Below are positions 34,337 through 41,328 of a DNA stretch of 64,000 nucleotides, one piece after another. Both the position numbers and the translations under genes were made by a program. The first letter of the stretch is position 1. Each line of letters begins with the position of its first letter. The DNA lies in assembly GCA_007121455.1 (NCBI GenBank), contig SKKN01000011.1, forward strand, positions 1-64,000. The letters are read 5' to 3'. Under the pieces are notes generated by a model that ran no database searches, had not been told where the DNA came from, and worked only from the letters and a program-made list of their open reading frames with translations. This stretch comes from Gemmatimonadota bacterium. Its GTDB lineage: Bacteria; Gemmatimonadota; Gemmatimonadetes; Longimicrobiales; Gaopeijiaceae.

Positions 34337-34410
34337 GGGCCCATAGCTCAGCTGGTCAGAGCAGCGGACTCATAATCCGACGGTCCCAGGTTCAAGTCCT
34401 GGTGGGCCCA
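34337..34410 (+). tRNA. tRNA with CAT anticodon (Ile2 or elongator Met)
   Basis: 74 bases fold as a complete cloverleaf. The acceptor is GGGCCCA/TGGGCCC with discriminator A, the D-arm is GCTC...GAGC, and the anticodon loop is CTCATAA (CAT). The T-arm is CCAGG-TTCAAGT-CCTGG. CCA is not encoded. Several positions (AGAGCAGCGGACTCATAATCC, TTCAAGTCC) are closer to tRNA-Ile2, whose C34 is modified to lysidine, than to elongator tRNA-Met. The lack of an initiator-type mismatch argues against fMet. The choice between Ile2 and Met remains open. Confidence 0.95.
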
Positions 34411-34444
34411 CTTGACCGACCCGGTGTGCGCGGCTCGACCGCGT

Positions 34445-35395
34445 TCATCGACGGCGCCCGCGCCCGACGATGGTGTCGATGGCCTCGAGCGCATCGGTCG
34501 CCTCGGAGAGCCGGATGACCTCCCCCTCCAGCTTGTCGCAGCGGGCTTCGATCCGGGCCCGCTCGTCCCGTTCTGCCCGAAGTCGCGCTTCGAGCTCGGT
34601 GATCTCCGCCGACCGGAGCTCGACGAGGTCGCGCATCTCCTCGACCTCCTGAAGAGCGGCCTCCTTTTCGGCGTCTTGTCGCTCGAGCGCGGATTCGGCT
34701 TCCGCAAGCACGGTGGCCTGCTCGTGGTCGAGGCGGCGCCGCTCGGCGAGTTCGGCGAGGACGAGATCGCGCTCGGCCGCCAGCGCCTCGGCTTCCGCTA
34801 CGGCGGCGTCCGCGACTTCCGCACGTTCCTCGGCGAGGGCTTCGACTCCGGCGCGGCTCCGTCGCTCGCGCTCCAGCTCGCTCTCGGCCTCCGCGAGCGC
34901 CGTGCGGGCCTCCTCGAGTTGGCCGGCGATATCCGTCCGCTCCCGGACCGCTGTCTCCATGCGGGCCCTCAGTTCCTCGACCGCCTCCCGAACCGCTGCC
35001 GCCGTGCGTGTGGGCTCGTTCCCCGTGGAAGGGGGACGGGAGGCCAGAGCGAGGCGCTCCCGGAGGGCGGCCAGGCGATCCCGCCCGTCGGAGGCAGGAG
35101 CTGGGGAAGCAGCAGCTGTGGAGGCAGCAACTGGATCCGGGGCCTGCGTGGCCGCCTTCTGGAGACTCGGGTCCGGCCGTTTTGGGGGCGCCTCGGGCTC
35201 TTCCGTCTCCGCCGCGAAAAGCGAAGCCTCGGCTACCTCTTCGACCGCCTCCTCTCCGGTTTCACGAACCTCCTCCCCAGCTTCGCGAACCTCTTCTTCG
35301 GTGTCCACGGAATCCGAGGTGAGCTGCGTCAGCACCCGTCCGATCTGGGTTTTCGGCTTTCGGGCCGGCACGCTGTCGTTAAAGCGGTTTCTCAT
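34445..35395 (-). CDS. Coiled-coil protein in a ParA operon (PomX-like position)
   Basis: 316 aa. The N-terminus is strongly basic (MRNRFNDSVPARKPKTQIGR). An acidic and Ala/Pro-rich linker (about 30-105) follows. From about 110 to the end (LAALRERLALAS..., AVREAVEELRARMETAV, GQLEEARTALAEAESELERE, DLVELRSAEITELEARLRAE, CDKLEGEVIRLSEATDALEA) the heptad pattern of a long coiled coil continues nearly unbroken. The ATG overlaps the ParA stop by 4 bases. Partners of ParA ATPases (ParB, MinE, PomX) typically stimulate ATP hydrolysis through a short basic N-terminal peptide, as seen here. Function in positioning is inferred from this context; no enzymatic motif is present. Confidence 0.75.
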   Translation of the reverse strand: MRNRFNDSVPARKPKTQIGRVLTQLTSDSVDTEEEVREAGEEVRETGEEAVEEVAEASLFAAETEEPEAPPKRPDPSLQKAATQAPDPVAASTAAASPAPASDGRDRLAALRERLALASRPPSTGNEPTRTAAAVREAVEELRARMETAVRERTDIAGQLEEARTALAEAESELERERRSRAGVEALAEERAEVADAAVAEAEALAAERDLVLAELAERRRLDHEQATVLAEAESALERQDAEKEAALQEVEEMRDLVELRSAEITELEARLRAERDERARIEARCDKLEGEVIRLSEATDALEAIDTIVGRGRRR

Positions 35396-36357
35396 GCACT
35401 CCTCTCCTTCGCGTCCCCGTCGGGGGCACGCATGATTTCTGTGACCAACGAACGGATGTCGTGGGCTCCGCGGCACCTCGGAGCGAAGACGGAGATGGGA
35501 AGTCCCTCGCTGGTGGCCTGTGCGAACTGGGTGCACTGGCGCACCACGGTTCGCGAGAGGAACTCCGAATAATGGGTTTCGAGGGCGTGCTTCGCCTCTC
35601 GTGCGATGCGCGTCGTCGGGTTGAATTGATTGAGGAGGATGACGATTCGTTCAAGCGTATGGTCGAGATCCTCTTCGAGCTCTCCCACGGTTTCGAAGAG
35701 GAGCTTGAGGCCATGGAAAGAAAGAAAGTCCGGAAGGACGGGCACGATGAGGTCGTCGGTGGCGATCAGCGCGTTCAGGTTCAGGAGACCGAAGGACGGC
35801 GGAGCGTCCATTACGGCAAAGTCATATCGGTCCGACACCGATTCCAGCGCCTTCTTCAATCGGTACTCTCTGCCGGCCAGCGGCATCAAGGCCAGGTCGA
35901 CCGTGCTCATCCCCAGGTTGGCGGGGATGAGGTCGAAGTTGGTGAGCGGAGTGTCTACGAGCACGTCATCGATCGCGACGCGGTCGATCAGCACATCGTA
36001 GATGGTGCGCTCGTGCTCCTCGCCCTTGAAGCCGAGGTGCTGCGTCGCATGCCCCTGCGAGTCGAGGTCGATGAGCAGGACCCTGTGACCGAGCTCCGCC
36101 AGATGAAACGCGTACCCGACCGAAAGGCTCGTCTTCCCCGTCCCTCCCTTGAAGTTCAGGAAGAGCTGGTGGCGCATCGGGCTTCGGGGTGGCCGCCGGT
36201 TCAACGCCTTGCGGTAGGCGGAGAGGTGAAGGGGGTCGTATTCCTCTGGGCCACCGTCCAGCCGCTTCAGCTCCGGACGGTCGTCTGCCTTGGCGAGCTC
36301 CCGGTCGGAGATCCCCAGAAGCCTGGCGAACTGTCTTCTCCGGTAACGGATCTCCAC
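35392..36357 (-). CDS. ParA/MinD-family ATPase with N-terminal helix-turn-helix-like extension
   Basis: 321 aa. Residues 1-58 (YRRRQFARLLGISDRELAKAD...YDPLHLSAYRKALN) look like a small MerR-type DNA-binding unit. The ATPase core has the deviant Walker A NFKGGTGKTSLS with signature Lys70 and Lys75. LLIDLDSQGHATQHLG (Walker A') and FAVMDAPPSFGLL (Walker B) follow. There is no C-terminal amphipathic helix of the MinD type, so it probably binds the nucleoid as ParA/PomZ do. No ParB with a CTP-binding domain and no parS-like repeats are visible. It sits between two coiled-coil proteins in one minus-strand transcript, with a 4-base overlap downstream and 47 bases upstream. Confidence 0.88.
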   Translation of the reverse strand: MEIRYRRRQFARLLGISDRELAKADDRPELKRLDGGPEEYDPLHLSAYRKALNRRPPRSPMRHQLFLNFKGGTGKTSLSVGYAFHLAELGHRVLLIDLDSQGHATQHLGFKGEEHERTIYDVLIDRVAIDDVLVDTPLTNFDLIPANLGMSTVDLALMPLAGREYRLKKALESVSDRYDFAVMDAPPSFGLLNLNALIATDDLIVPVLPDFLSFHGLKLLFETVGELEEDLDHTLERIVILLNQFNPTTRIAREAKHALETHYSEFLSRTVVRQCTQFAQATSEGLPISVFAPRCRGAHDIRSLVTEIMRAPDGDAKERSA

Positions 36358-36404
36358 GAAATCTCTCTGCGAATGCGAACGGTTCCGGTGAATCGGTACG
36401 TCGG

Positions 36405-37886
36405 TCAGCTTCCCGCGTCCCGGGGTTCCTGCCCTGAAGTCGCGAACGTCCGCTCTCGGTCGTCTGCCGGTACGTTCGTAGGCGACGCGTGGCGCAGGAC
36501 CTCGCGGACGACCCTGCGCACCTGGGGGTCGCGATCAGCTCGGAGCGGGTCGAGCAGCGAATGCAGCTCCAGTCCGCGGGAGGTCGCCGCAGCGAGCACG
36601 GCTCGGCGGCGCACTCGTGGATCCACGTCGGCAAACCCCAGGCGCAGTTGCGCCCCGAGCCGGGTGGGGTCGTCCCGGAGGAGTCGGGCCATCCGTTCAA
36701 GGGCCGCCGCACGCGCGGTGGGATCCCGCGATTGGAGCTCCCCTGCGGCGTTACCCTCACTGGGTGTCTCCTCCCGATCTACTACGTCTGCGCCCTCCGG
36801 CGCAATCGCGGCGCTCTCCGTTGCCTCGTCCACGACGGGCTCCCCCTCTTCCGCCTCCTCGGCGCCCGGAGAGGGCGAGCCGAAGAGGTCCGGGTCCTGA
36901 TCGTGCTCGTCCGGGGCAGCTCCGGGCTCGGACTCGGCGGGATCCTCCAAACCGGAAGCTTCGACTTCGAGCTCCGACTGCTCCCCCGGCGCTCCCTTCG
37001 GCTCGGCGGGCTCCGCATCGGGGAGCGTCTCGCCATCGTCAATTCCATCCGACTCTGCTTCGGGTTCTCCGGCCTGTGCCGCGGTTTCAGTCTCTGCCGT
37101 CGCCTCTGCCGCGGTATCGGTCTCTGTTGTGGCTTCTGCTGCCTGCACCTGCCGGGAAGCCCCAGGCCGTGTCTCCCGTGCATCGGGAGCCTCTCCGCTC
37201 GGAGGTACATCTTCCTCTTCGCGAGAAGGTGCGTCCGGGTCCAGCCCGGCCCGGATCATTCGTTCCCGGAGCTCGGCTTCGTGCCGCTCGCTCGCGGCGT
37301 TTCGCCTTTCCAGGTCGAGGATGTCCTGGCGAAGCTCGGCCATGAACTCCGCGAGATCGACCGCTTCCGGGCCGTCCGTCTGCACGAGTCGCTGCCAGGC
37401 GGCAACCCGCGTCAGGAGAACCTCTCGTGTGAGAAGGAGTTGATCCATTCTAGCGCGGACGCGCGCAAGCGTCTGCTCGCTGGAGAGGGACCTCTCGCGT
37501 AGAGCGAGGACCTCTCGTCGGAGTCGGACCAGCTCTGCTGTATCATCACGGGCACCGGATTCGAAGAGGTGGCCATCGAGTTCCGCTCGAAGCACCTCGG
37601 AGCGGTCCAACCGTTCGTGCAGTGACACGATCTCTTCCCGTGCCTCGGCGAGCTCCTGGTGAAGGAGGCCGTGTCGGCGGGCGTGAGCCGCCTCCCTCGC
37701 CGTGGCGACCGCGAGCGAAGCTCGACTTCGGTCGGCATCGGCGCGCGCCTCGTCCAGCGCCGAGCGAAGGTGCTCCAGGCGACATTCGAGGAGGAGGATG
37801 CGCTCCTCATGATCCGACGGAGGGTTCCGACTCGTGGATTCCCTGTTGCGCTCTACCACTGGAACACGTTCTCCCGTCTCGCTCAT
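36405..37886 (-). CDS. Coiled-coil / acidic linker / HEAT-repeat protein (PomY-like)
   Basis: 493 aa. From about 22 to 195 there is a coiled coil (LLLECRLEHLRSALDEARAD, LLHQELAEAREEIVSLHERL, ALRERSLSSEQTLARVRARM, FMAELRQDILDLERRNAASE). About 200-385 is a disordered, strongly acidic stretch of Glu, Ala, Pro and Asp. The C-terminus (about 388-475) has HEAT-like helices: DPTARAAALERMARLLRDDP, VDPRVRRRAVLAAATSRGLE and RDPQVRRVVREVLRHA. This order of coiled coil, low-complexity and HEAT parts recalls PomY of Myxococcus, although there HEAT is central. GGTGG precedes the ATG. The frame continues far upstream across non-homologous sequence, which is rejected. First gene of the ParA cluster. Confidence 0.75.
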   Translation of the reverse strand: MSETGERVPVVERNRESTSRNPPSDHEERILLLECRLEHLRSALDEARADADRSRASLAVATAREAAHARRHGLLHQELAEAREEIVSLHERLDRSEVLRAELDGHLFESGARDDTAELVRLRREVLALRERSLSSEQTLARVRARMDQLLLTREVLLTRVAAWQRLVQTDGPEAVDLAEFMAELRQDILDLERRNAASERHEAELRERMIRAGLDPDAPSREEEDVPPSGEAPDARETRPGASRQVQAAEATTETDTAAEATAETETAAQAGEPEAESDGIDDGETLPDAEPAEPKGAPGEQSELEVEASGLEDPAESEPGAAPDEHDQDPDLFGSPSPGAEEAEEGEPVVDEATESAAIAPEGADVVDREETPSEGNAAGELQSRDPTARAAALERMARLLRDDPTRLGAQLRLGFADVDPRVRRRAVLAAATSRGLELHSLLDPLRADRDPQVRRVVREVLRHASPTNVPADDRERTFATSGQEPRDAGS

Positions 37887-38225
37887 GTGCACCACCCGTC
37901 GAATCGTGTCGGGACCACCAGGCGACGTGGGACGGGGCTCCACCGAGGGCCCCGCCGACCTGGCGCACGAACCATAGACTCGGCGGTCCCAGCGGGCAAG
38001 GATGGATGGGAGGAGACGCAGGCGGTCGCGCACCGTCTTCCCGAGGGCGTGTGCAAATGCGGGGGGATCGTGTTCTCTTGTGGGTCGGCGTCTCGCTTGA
38101 CGGCGCGAACCTCCACGTCCGAAACTTGAAAGACTCCGTGCTGGCGGTTTGCCCCGGCGGGCGACGATCACGCGTTCATCATCGAGGGGACTGAATCCGG
38201 TGACCGGGAAGGCAAGCAGGAACGG
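37887..38225. other. Intergenic region between the divergent ParA cluster and rhomboid gene
   Basis: 339 bases without a convincing gene. It must hold the divergent promoters of both neighbours, but no strong -35/-10 pair stands out; a TTGACG at 38097 lacks a matching -10. Short reading frames here have no ribosome binding site or protein-like composition. Confidence 0.5.
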
Positions 38226-39047
38226 ATGGGCAAGCGCACGCCGGGCCAGGAGGCTCCGGTGACGCCATGGGTCAAACGACTTCTCCTGGCGAACGTCGGC
38301 GTCTTTATCGGGATGATGATGCTGCCTCGTCCGCAGCTCGAGGCGTTCCTGAGCGCGACGGTCCTCGTGCCGGCTCAGGTGCTCGTCCGGCCGTGGACGA
38401 TCGTGACGTACATGTTCCTCCACGCCGGGCTCTGGCACCTCCTTTTCAACATGATCGCGCTCTTCTTTTTCGGGCCGCGGCTCGAAGCGAGGCTCGGTAG
38501 CCGGCACTTTCTCTACCTCTACCTGCTGAGCGGATTCATGGGGGCGGCGCTCTCCGTCTTCACCCCGTACGCGCGCATCGTCGGTGCGTCCGGTGCCGTC
38601 TTCGGGGTACTCCTGGGGTTCGCCCTGTACTGGCCGCACGAGCGGATCTACATCTGGGCGATCTTGCCGGTGGAGGCGCGCTGGCTCGTGATCTTCCTCA
38701 CCGCTCTCTCCCTCTACGGCGGGATCACGGGTGCACAGGGCGGGATCGCCCACTTCGCCCATCTGGGTGGGTTCCTCGGTGGCTGGATCTTCCTGAAGTG
38801 GCGGGACCGGAACACCGGCGCAGCTCGATTCAAGCGCCAGGTCGAGCAGGCCAGGGCGGGGGCCGGGAGTTTGGGGAGCAGGGAGGTGGAGCGATGGCGA
38901 CACGTGCCGCTGGATCAACTCCATCCCCTGAACCGCGAGGAGTTCGAGAGGATCCTCGAGAAGGTGGGTGCGCGGGGCGCGAGCTCGCTCACACCGGATG
39001 AACGGGGGTTCATGAACCGTTTCGTGCGGCGGAACGAGGAGAGGTAA
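38226..39047 (+). CDS. Rhomboid-family intramembrane serine protease
   Basis: 273 aa. Six membrane segments are visible. The catalytic Ser is in [13 protein letters not shown] (Ser122), and the catalytic His in [15 protein letters not shown] (His179). [22 protein letters not shown] is the rhomboid L1/TM2 hallmark with the WHLLFNM motif. A cytoplasmic tail of about 80 residues (about 195-273) is polar and ends [15 protein letters not shown] precedes the ATG. The next gene starts 22 bases downstream on the same strand but is not functionally related by sequence. The substrate is unknown. Confidence 0.9.
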
Positions 39048-39069
39048 TCCACCACGAAGGAGGGCGCCG

Positions 39070-41328
39070 ATGCCCGGTCCTGTGAATCCGTCCGGCTGGG
39101 CCTCGTTGAGGCCGTTCGGCCTGGGGGAGGTGAAGCCCCACCACCTGGGGGAGATGGCCCAGGTGGCATGGAAGAACCGCGACGAGTTGGCGTTCGCCTG
39201 GAGGATTCTGAACGACGGGGTCTGCGACGGCTGTGCCCTCGGAACGACCGGCCTCCGCGACCACACGATGGAGGGGATCCACCTCTGCACCGTCCGCCTG
39301 AACCTCCTCCGTCTGAACACGATGGGTGCCCTCGATCCCGCTCTCCTCGAGGATGCGGAGGCGCTCCTCGCCCGGGACGAGTCGGAGCTTCTCGAGCTGG
39401 GCCGGCTTCCCTATCCGATGCTCCGGGAGCGCGGTGATCGCGGCTTTCGGCGGGTGTCGTGGGACGAGGCGCTGGACCTCGCATCCGGGCGCATCCGCGC
39501 AACGGACCCCGATCGGATCTCGTTCTACCTCACCTCCCGCGGAATCACGAACGAGGTCTATTACGTCGCGCAAAAGGTCGCCCGGTTCCTGGGGACGAAC
39601 CACGTCGACAACTCGGCGCGGATCTGTCACGCACCGAGCACTATTGCGCTCAAACGCTCCCTCGGCGTCGCGGCCTCGACGTGCTCGTATCGCGACTGGT
39701 TCGGGACGGACCTCCTGATCTTCCTCGGCTCCGACGCACCGAACAACCAACCCGTCTCCACCAAGTACATGTACTACGCGAAGCAGGAGGGGACGCAGAT
39801 CGTCATGGTGAACCCGTATCGGGAGCCGGGGCTCGATCGCTACTGGGTCCCCTCGGTCCCCGAGAGTGCTCTGTTCGGGACCAAGCTCACGGACCACTAC
39901 TACCAGATTCACCAGGGGGGGGACGTCTCCTTCCTGAACGGCGTCCTGAAGCACCTGCTGGCGGAGGACCGGGTAGACGAGGAATTCGTCGCGGCGCACA
40001 CCACCGGCTTCGACGAGGTGAGGAGGAGTGTGGAGGGTGAGGCCTGGGAGGACCTCGAGCGGGGATCGGGAGTCGACCGGGAGAGGATGGCGGACTTCGC
40101 CCGGCTCCTGGCGGAGGCCGAATCCGCGGTGTTCGTGTGGAGCATGGGCCTCACGCAGCACCGGTTCGGCGTGGACAACGTGCAGGCCGTGATCAATGTG
40201 GCGCTCGCCCGGGGGTTCGTCGGGCGGGAAAAATGTGGGCTCATGCCGATCCGGGGGCACTCCGGGGTACAGGGCGGCGCGGAGATGGGCGCGGTGCCGT
40301 GGACCCTCCCGGGAGGGCTCCCGCTCGACGAGGAGAACCGGCGGCGCTTCTCCGACCTGTGGGGCTTCGACGTTCCGGGAGGACGCGGCCTCTCCGCCGT
40401 CGAGAGCATGGACGCCGCGCACCGGGGCGACATCGACGTCCTCTGGGCCGTCGGCGGCAACCACCTGAAGACGCTTCCGGATCCGGACTACTGCCGGGAA
40501 GCCCTCGAGCGGGTGCCCCTGCGCGTCCATCACGACATCATCCTCACGCACCAGATGCTCGTCGAAGCGGAGGAGGCGGTGCTCCTGCTCCCGGCCACGA
40601 CGCGTTACGAGCAGCCGGGTGGGGGCACGGAGACGACGACGGAGCGGAGGGTCTACTTCAGCCCGGAGATTCCCGGCCGGAGGATCGGGGAGGCCCGCTC
40701 GGAGTGGGAGGTCTTCCAGGAGCTCGCCGCCCGGGTGAGGCCCGAGGAAGCGGATCGGATCCGCTTCGCGGATGCGGCGGCGATCCGGGCGGAGATCGCT
40801 CGCGCGAACCCCGTCTACGAAGGCATTCAGGAGCTCAGGAAGAAGGGAGACACCTTTCAGTGGGGTGGCCCCCGCCTCTGCGAGGGAGCCCAATTCACCA
40901 CGGAGGACGGGCGTGCAAGCTTGTACCCCGCGACTCCTCCCCATCTCCGGATCCCGGAGGGGTGGTTCCATGCGACGACGCGGCGGGGAAAGCAGTTCAA
41001 TTCGATCGTGCAGAGTGCGCGGGACCCCCTGAACGCGGCACTTCGGGAGGACGTCCTCATCGCGCAGGGAGACGCGGAGCGGCTCGGGCTGGAGGACGGC
41101 GACCCCCTCCTCCTCCGCTCCGAGTTCGGTGAGATGCGGGGGCGCTGCAAGGTGGCGGACATCCGGGAGCGCAACCTCCAGGTCCACTGGCCCGAGGGGA
41201 ACGTCCTGATTCCGCGGGCGGTGACCGAGCCCGGTTCCGGGATTCCCGAGTACTCTGCGCTGGTCGAAGTCCTTCCGGTCGCGGGGTCACGGACGAAGTC
41301 CCCCGCCGAGCTGCCCGGAGGAGCCTGA
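39070..41328 (+). CDS. FdhF/YdeP-family molybdopterin oxidoreductase
   Basis: 752 aa bis-MGD enzyme related to the catalytic chain of formate dehydrogenase H and E. coli YdeP. The N-terminal [19 protein letters not shown] motif with later LC (about 49-73) may bind an FeS cluster. [39 protein letters not shown] and [26 protein letters not shown] are family-typical. [16 protein letters not shown] follows. The C-terminal molybdopterin-dinucleotide binding domain contains [32 protein letters not shown] precedes the ATG. fdhD and a mobA-mobB fusion follow with overlaps, forming an enzyme-plus-cofactor-maturation module. The true substrate is not known for this family; formate is only one possibility. 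Confidence 0.88.

Follow-up and report, generated by a model that had tools for sequence, protein, structure and literature searches.

The window analysed here is a stretch of 64,000 nucleotides from a Gemmatimonadota genome of 3.5 Mb in 80 contigs. It carries three genes on the minus strand which, read from position 37886 down to 34445, we assign as homologues of pomY (36405–37886; 493 aa), pomZ (35392–36357; 321 aa, a ParA/MinD ATPase with a GTG start) and pomX (34445–35395; 316 aa). The assignments use hhalign comparison with Myxococcota PomY and an AF2 model for the first, identity to Myxococcota PomZ and a tree for the second, and hhalign comparison with Myxococcota PomX plus alignment of its N-terminal activating peptide (NPEP; MRNRFNDSVPARKPKTQIGRVL; 35330–35395, minus strand) for the third. 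The pomZ and pomX reading frames overlap by 4 bases. An initial annotation of this DNA had described three co-directional genes, and their coordinates and strand were confirmed. On the plus strand, outside the system, lie a tRNA gene with a CAT anticodon found by ARAGORN (34337–34411) and a gene of the rhomboid family (38226–39047), which form the two borders of the cassette. ARAGORN calls the tRNA as Met; it could alternatively be a tRNA-Ile2 reading AUA after lysidine modification.

Compared with the nearest relative, codon position 3 differs in 0.56 (pomY), 0.45 (pomZ) and 0.63 (pomX) of codons, against 0.08–0.35 for positions 1 and 2. Because the differences concentrate at the third position, the trio are real coding genes. 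The longer open reading frame 36405–39320 arises from mechanically extending the 493-aa gene upstream. Two antisense frames on the plus strand, 34424–35572 opposite pomX and 36489–37502 opposite pomY, beat the true genes on a simple GC3 criterion, probably as a result of the E/A/R-rich coiled-coil composition of PomX and PomY, and gene callers may mis-annotate the pom locus in the window.

The ATPase

The product of the middle gene has the deviant Walker motif KGGTGKT and matches AAA_31/ParA (E 2e-47), in agreement with the first description of it as a deviant-Walker ParA ATPase. Among 58 relatives searched, a sharply separated orthologue was present in a few genomes (67–79% identity, full length), all other ParA proteins being only about 30% identical to it. 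A search of the Myxococcota, the phylum of one distant match (L046/G429), returned orthologues in 132 of 195 genomes, with 54–62% identity over most or all of the length. These orthologues are PomZ, because the published M. xanthus pomX primer sequences (PMC7993993) map to the same loci, the lengths agree (319 aa for PomZ and, in two loci, the published 404 aa for PomX), and G62, K66, D90 and K268 of PomZ and V584..M591 of PomY stand at their published positions (K268 and the PomY alpha5 residues 584–591 being taken from PMC13170346). PomZ separates from chromosomal ParA at 100/100 in the tree.

G62, K66 and D90, the residues of ATP binding and hydrolysis, are conserved in every Gemmatimonadota PomZ copy covering them, and the window protein retains D90 as well as the Walker motif. 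Over the PomZ residues for which PMC13170346 lists a predicted contact with the PomX peptide, Gemmatimonadota PomZ is 70% identical to the M. xanthus protein versus 55% overall, and chromosomal ParA is only 25% identical there. Lys268 is important for non-specific DNA binding by M. xanthus PomZ (PMC13170346). The window protein has Gln at this position, as do most copies from Gemmatimonadota, and G022 and G115 have Lys; the residue is not invariant in the Myxococcota either (25 of 33). In M. xanthus models a hydrophobic pocket of PomZ binds alpha5 of PomY. This pocket is 85% conserved on Gemmatimonadota PomZ although Gemmatimonadota PomY has no alpha5, and some other partner may bind there.

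The initial annotation had proposed a small DNA-binding-like unit at the N-terminus of the ATPase. The first ~55 residues are helical and HTH-like by prediction, at modest confidence, and the extension is also present in Myxococcota PomZ; a Pfam search of these residues gave no match. The structure prediction for PomZ, made from three sequences, was poor (pLDDT 46).

The two coiled-coil partners

By profile alignment the product of 34445–35395 is a PomX homologue, composed of the N-terminal activating peptide, an Ala/Pro/acidic linker and a C-terminal coiled coil. Comparison of the window-side PomX with Myxococcota PomX in hhalign gave E 6.8e-27 for the whole protein, E 4.2e-21 when the NPEP was left out, leaving the C-terminal coiled coil, and E 4.7e-11 for the NPEP alone. 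Cross controls pairing PomX with PomY, which measure the coiled-coil background, reached about 1e-5.

No gap is needed to align the window peptide MRNRFNDSVPARKPKTQIGRVL with the activating peptide of PomX, and the two have F5, V9, K13, P14 and a positive residue 15 in common. K13 and K15 of the window correspond to K13 and R15 of M. xanthus PomX, in which positive charge at positions 13 and 15 matters. K13 is found in eight of nine Gemmatimonadota copies and R/K15 in all nine. When 36 Myxococcota sequences are included, F5, V9, P14 and the positive residue 15 are invariant, and only one sequence lacks a positive residue at position 13. The gene downstream of pomZ in the Myxococcota loci begins MKKAFEQNVSRAKPRLRLGAL. 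Taken by itself, the window peptide ranks first by naive profile score among the window's 3066 candidate starts. The score is nevertheless only moderate, being reached by 65 of 200,000 shuffles, so the case for the peptide rests on the orthologues. The initial annotation had seen a long coiled-coil protein whose basic N-terminus resembled peptides that activate ParA ATPases; the protein matches PomX, and its N-terminus is the PomX activating peptide by alignment and by NPEP profile match.

The product of 36405–37886 is likewise a homologue, of PomY, as judged from an hhalign match to the Myxococcota protein (99.7% probability, E 8e-26) that is colinear across coiled coil, DLAxF motif and HEAT repeats. 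Its AF2 model has a coiled coil at residues 23–212, an acidic disordered region at 220–377 and about 2.5 HEAT helix pairs at 380–467, with block means of pLDDT in the HEAT region mostly above 80. These are the three regions already proposed from the letters, although the HEAT_2 match is weak in the window protein alone (E 0.0099) and clearer in its orthologue (E 7e-4). The N-terminal coiled coil contains the motif VDLAEFMAELRQDIL, an instance of the DLAxF(I/M)xxLR motif common to Gemmatimonadota and Myxococcota PomY.

M. xanthus PomY has seven HEAT repeats versus the ~2.5 of the window, and its gD or C-terminal activating region is conserved in myxobacteria; residues 496–682 of the M. xanthus protein activate PomZ (PMC13170346). 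An HMM search detected gD in none of the nine Gemmatimonadota loci. The domain was likewise undetected in three Myxococcota genomes (G444, G446 and G451), so it was not taken as defining PomXYZ. The alpha5 motif, which is confined to a Myxococcus group, is absent from Gemmatimonadota PomY. Given the lack of the activating C-terminus and the smaller number of HEAT repeats, PomX would probably be the sole or main activator of the PomZ ATPase in the Gemmatimonadota version, and as both gD and alpha5 are missing the details of recruitment or activation may differ.

By sequence, then, all three proteins are one-to-one homologues of Myxococcus PomY, PomZ and PomX, encoded in the same gene order. The initial annotation had arrived at a PomXYZ-like system from the list of parts, and homology of each part now bears this out for all three; what did not carry over is the C-terminal activating region of M. 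xanthus PomY.

Distribution and origin of the cassette

Seven Gemmatimonadota genomes have the trio in conserved synteny and two more have it in part, giving nine carriers in four families, and in all seven loci that reach both neighbours pomZ lies between pomY and pomX and adjacent to them. A contig scan with one protein as query had found only two loci. The synteny survey thus showed conservation across relatives, the absence of which the initial annotation had named as an argument against a Pom-like system. Within the order, 6 of 154 genomes are carriers; sampling across the class gave 8 carriers in 394 genomes and sampling across the phylum 8 in 395, or ~2% of Gemmatimonadota. In one carrier genus four of ten genomes have the system. 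Given this patchiness, Gemmatimonadota as a whole do not depend on Pom for division. Flanking genes differ between distant carriers, and only the trio is common to them; no other cargo gene travels with it.

The window trio lies between the tRNA gene and the rhomboid gene. In two relatives that have no pom genes here (G016 and G020), the same tRNA and rhomboid genes are only about 75–105 bases apart, and this junction is an empty site. A duplicated tRNA end or attachment repeat was sought at the far border of the cassette and not found, so we claim no attachment site of the integrase type.

In the tree all PomZ copies from Gemmatimonadota fall into one clade (100/99), nested in a group of 14 rows that also includes five Myxococcota (100/99), and PomZ occurs in 68% of sampled Myxococcota genomes versus the ~2% of Gemmatimonadota. 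Because of the nested clade and this distribution, transfer from the Myxococcota is the simplest reading, and the cassette was probably acquired horizontally from that side. The direction is not firmly settled: a tree holding the Myxococcota together was not firmly rejected (AU p 0.113 and 0.053), and a second tree with nearer ParA, made because of the long gap between the closest outgroup and PomZ, did not settle the root. The Gemmatimonadota system is thus a patchy orthologue, probably acquired horizontally, and not an analogue.

Some loci depart from the common layout. In three of the four carriers of genus g62 (L052 in G408, L053 in G173 and G333:C230), the contig breaks inside pomZ at about residues 95–119; strain variation could explain this, as could a repeat at the break. 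One Myxococcota PomY reading frame (L087, G429:C126, and L046:9026–9979) opens with the HEAT repeats, and no N-terminal coiled coil was found within it. In L123 (G590) the cluster is interrupted, with the pomX homologue ~2 kb downstream of pomZ.

Division context and known systems

Gemmatimonadota divide by FtsZ-based binary fission at unusual positions, and their genomes seem to be without Min, MipZ or PomZ, according to a 2024 study (PMC11271474). Judged by homology, the pom carriers are exceptions to the last part of that statement. FtsZ was found in eight of the nine carriers (once as a fragment; the ninth assembly is itself fragmented). A search of 57 genomes, that of the window among them, gave no MinC, and its controls were positive. 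The presence of FtsZ and absence of MinC are only consistent with mid-cell positioning of FtsZ.

We regard the trio, with good confidence, as the PomXYZ system of these Gemmatimonadota, probably horizontally acquired, and propose for it division placement of the Myxococcus type. In such a system PomX polymers and PomY would form a cluster, which ATP-bound PomZ dimers would tether by binding the nucleoid. The N-terminal peptide of PomX would stimulate ATP hydrolysis by PomZ so that the cluster moves to mid-nucleoid, and there it would promote formation of the FtsZ ring. Homology makes placement of FtsZ the likely function. This reading has three weak points: the window PomZ has Gln in place of Lys268, PomY is reduced, and function is deduced from sequence. 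More tentatively, and with somewhat less than an even chance of being right, the system may be a stripped-down Pom, with PomX its only ATPase activator, in which a horizontally acquired cassette took over division placement in a phylum without a recognised system.

The cassette could instead be truly Pom-derived but position some cargo other than FtsZ, such as a condensate or an envelope or motility complex, PomY having changed accordingly. A PomY with few HEAT repeats and no gD would suit this, as would a patchy system whose non-carrying relatives divide without Pom; however, PomX retains its activating peptide and coiled coil, PomY retains its coiled-coil motif, FtsZ is present, and no gene for another cargo accompanies the trio. 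We consider this unlikely. It is very improbable that the ATPase is a plasmid or chromosome-segregation ParA working with an unusual non-ParB adaptor. It has the ParA fold, and its best curated matches are partition families such as partition_RepA, far below cut-off, but it groups with PomZ and away from chromosomal ParA at 100/100 and its partners are homologues of PomX and PomY. Furthermore, no ParB_N domain lies near the trio; the only ParB_N match of the genome is on contig C42, beside the chromosomal ParA, so that none partners PomZ, as the initial annotation had held in reporting no ParB. A typical partition ParA was rejected on the tree and the missing ParB.

Equally improbable is an artefact of metagenome assembly that placed the trio on a mis-binned Myxococcota contig. 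The carriers with named records are MAGs, but the gene adjoining the pom genes shares 70% and 68% identity with genes of Gemmatimonadota of the same family, the tRNA–rhomboid neighbourhood exists without pom in relatives, and the nine Gemmatimonadota copies come from separate assemblies and form one clade (100/99); contamination was rejected on the neighbouring gene and these nine copies. That a ParA was paired by chance with two unrelated low-complexity coiled-coil proteins resembling PomX and PomY is scarcely credible and was rejected on the hhalign cross controls, for the true pairs score ~20 orders of magnitude better than a background around E 1e-5 and the NPEP match involves no coiled coil.

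In the literature searched, PomXYZ is known only from myxobacteria (PMC7993993, PMC13170346), and no paper was found that names PomX together with Gemmatimonadota, as the initial annotation had supposed. PomXYZ outside the Myxococcota, and with a reduced PomY, is previously unreported within that literature. Here a Gemmatimonadota ParA is identified as PomZ together with both partners, in scattered lineages. Its occurrence in a second phylum means that Pom can move as a three-gene cassette. The divergent Gemmatimonadota sequences should be useful for locating the PomX–PomZ interface, and this Pom is a natural test of the need for the PomY activating region.

Among other systems, MinCDE and MipZ also use a ParA/MinD-type ATPase for division placement, with only distant similarity of that ATPase to the one in the window. 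Chromosomal ParA/Soj of ParABS systems resembles the window ATPase in its ParA fold and its deviant Walker motif, at ~30% identity, but its ParB partner is missing in the window. The likeness to M. xanthus is far more detailed: the order pomY (mxan_0634), pomZ (mxan_0635), pomX (mxan_0636) is that of the window, and the two have in common F5, V9, K13, P14 and K/R15 of the NPEP, the Walker A motif, D90 and N-terminal extension of PomZ, and a PomY with HEAT repeats and a coiled coil bearing the DLAxF motif. They differ in phylum, in the overlap of pomZ and pomX in the window, in Gln for K268, and in the lack of gD and the alpha5 helix from the window PomY. The closest PomZ relatives, those of the 14-row group, belong to deep Myxococcota lineages (G591, G429, G444, G446 and G435). 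G444 and G446 are also without detectable gD, which G591, G429 and G435 retain, and the PomX of G591 is 40% identical over 211 aligned columns.
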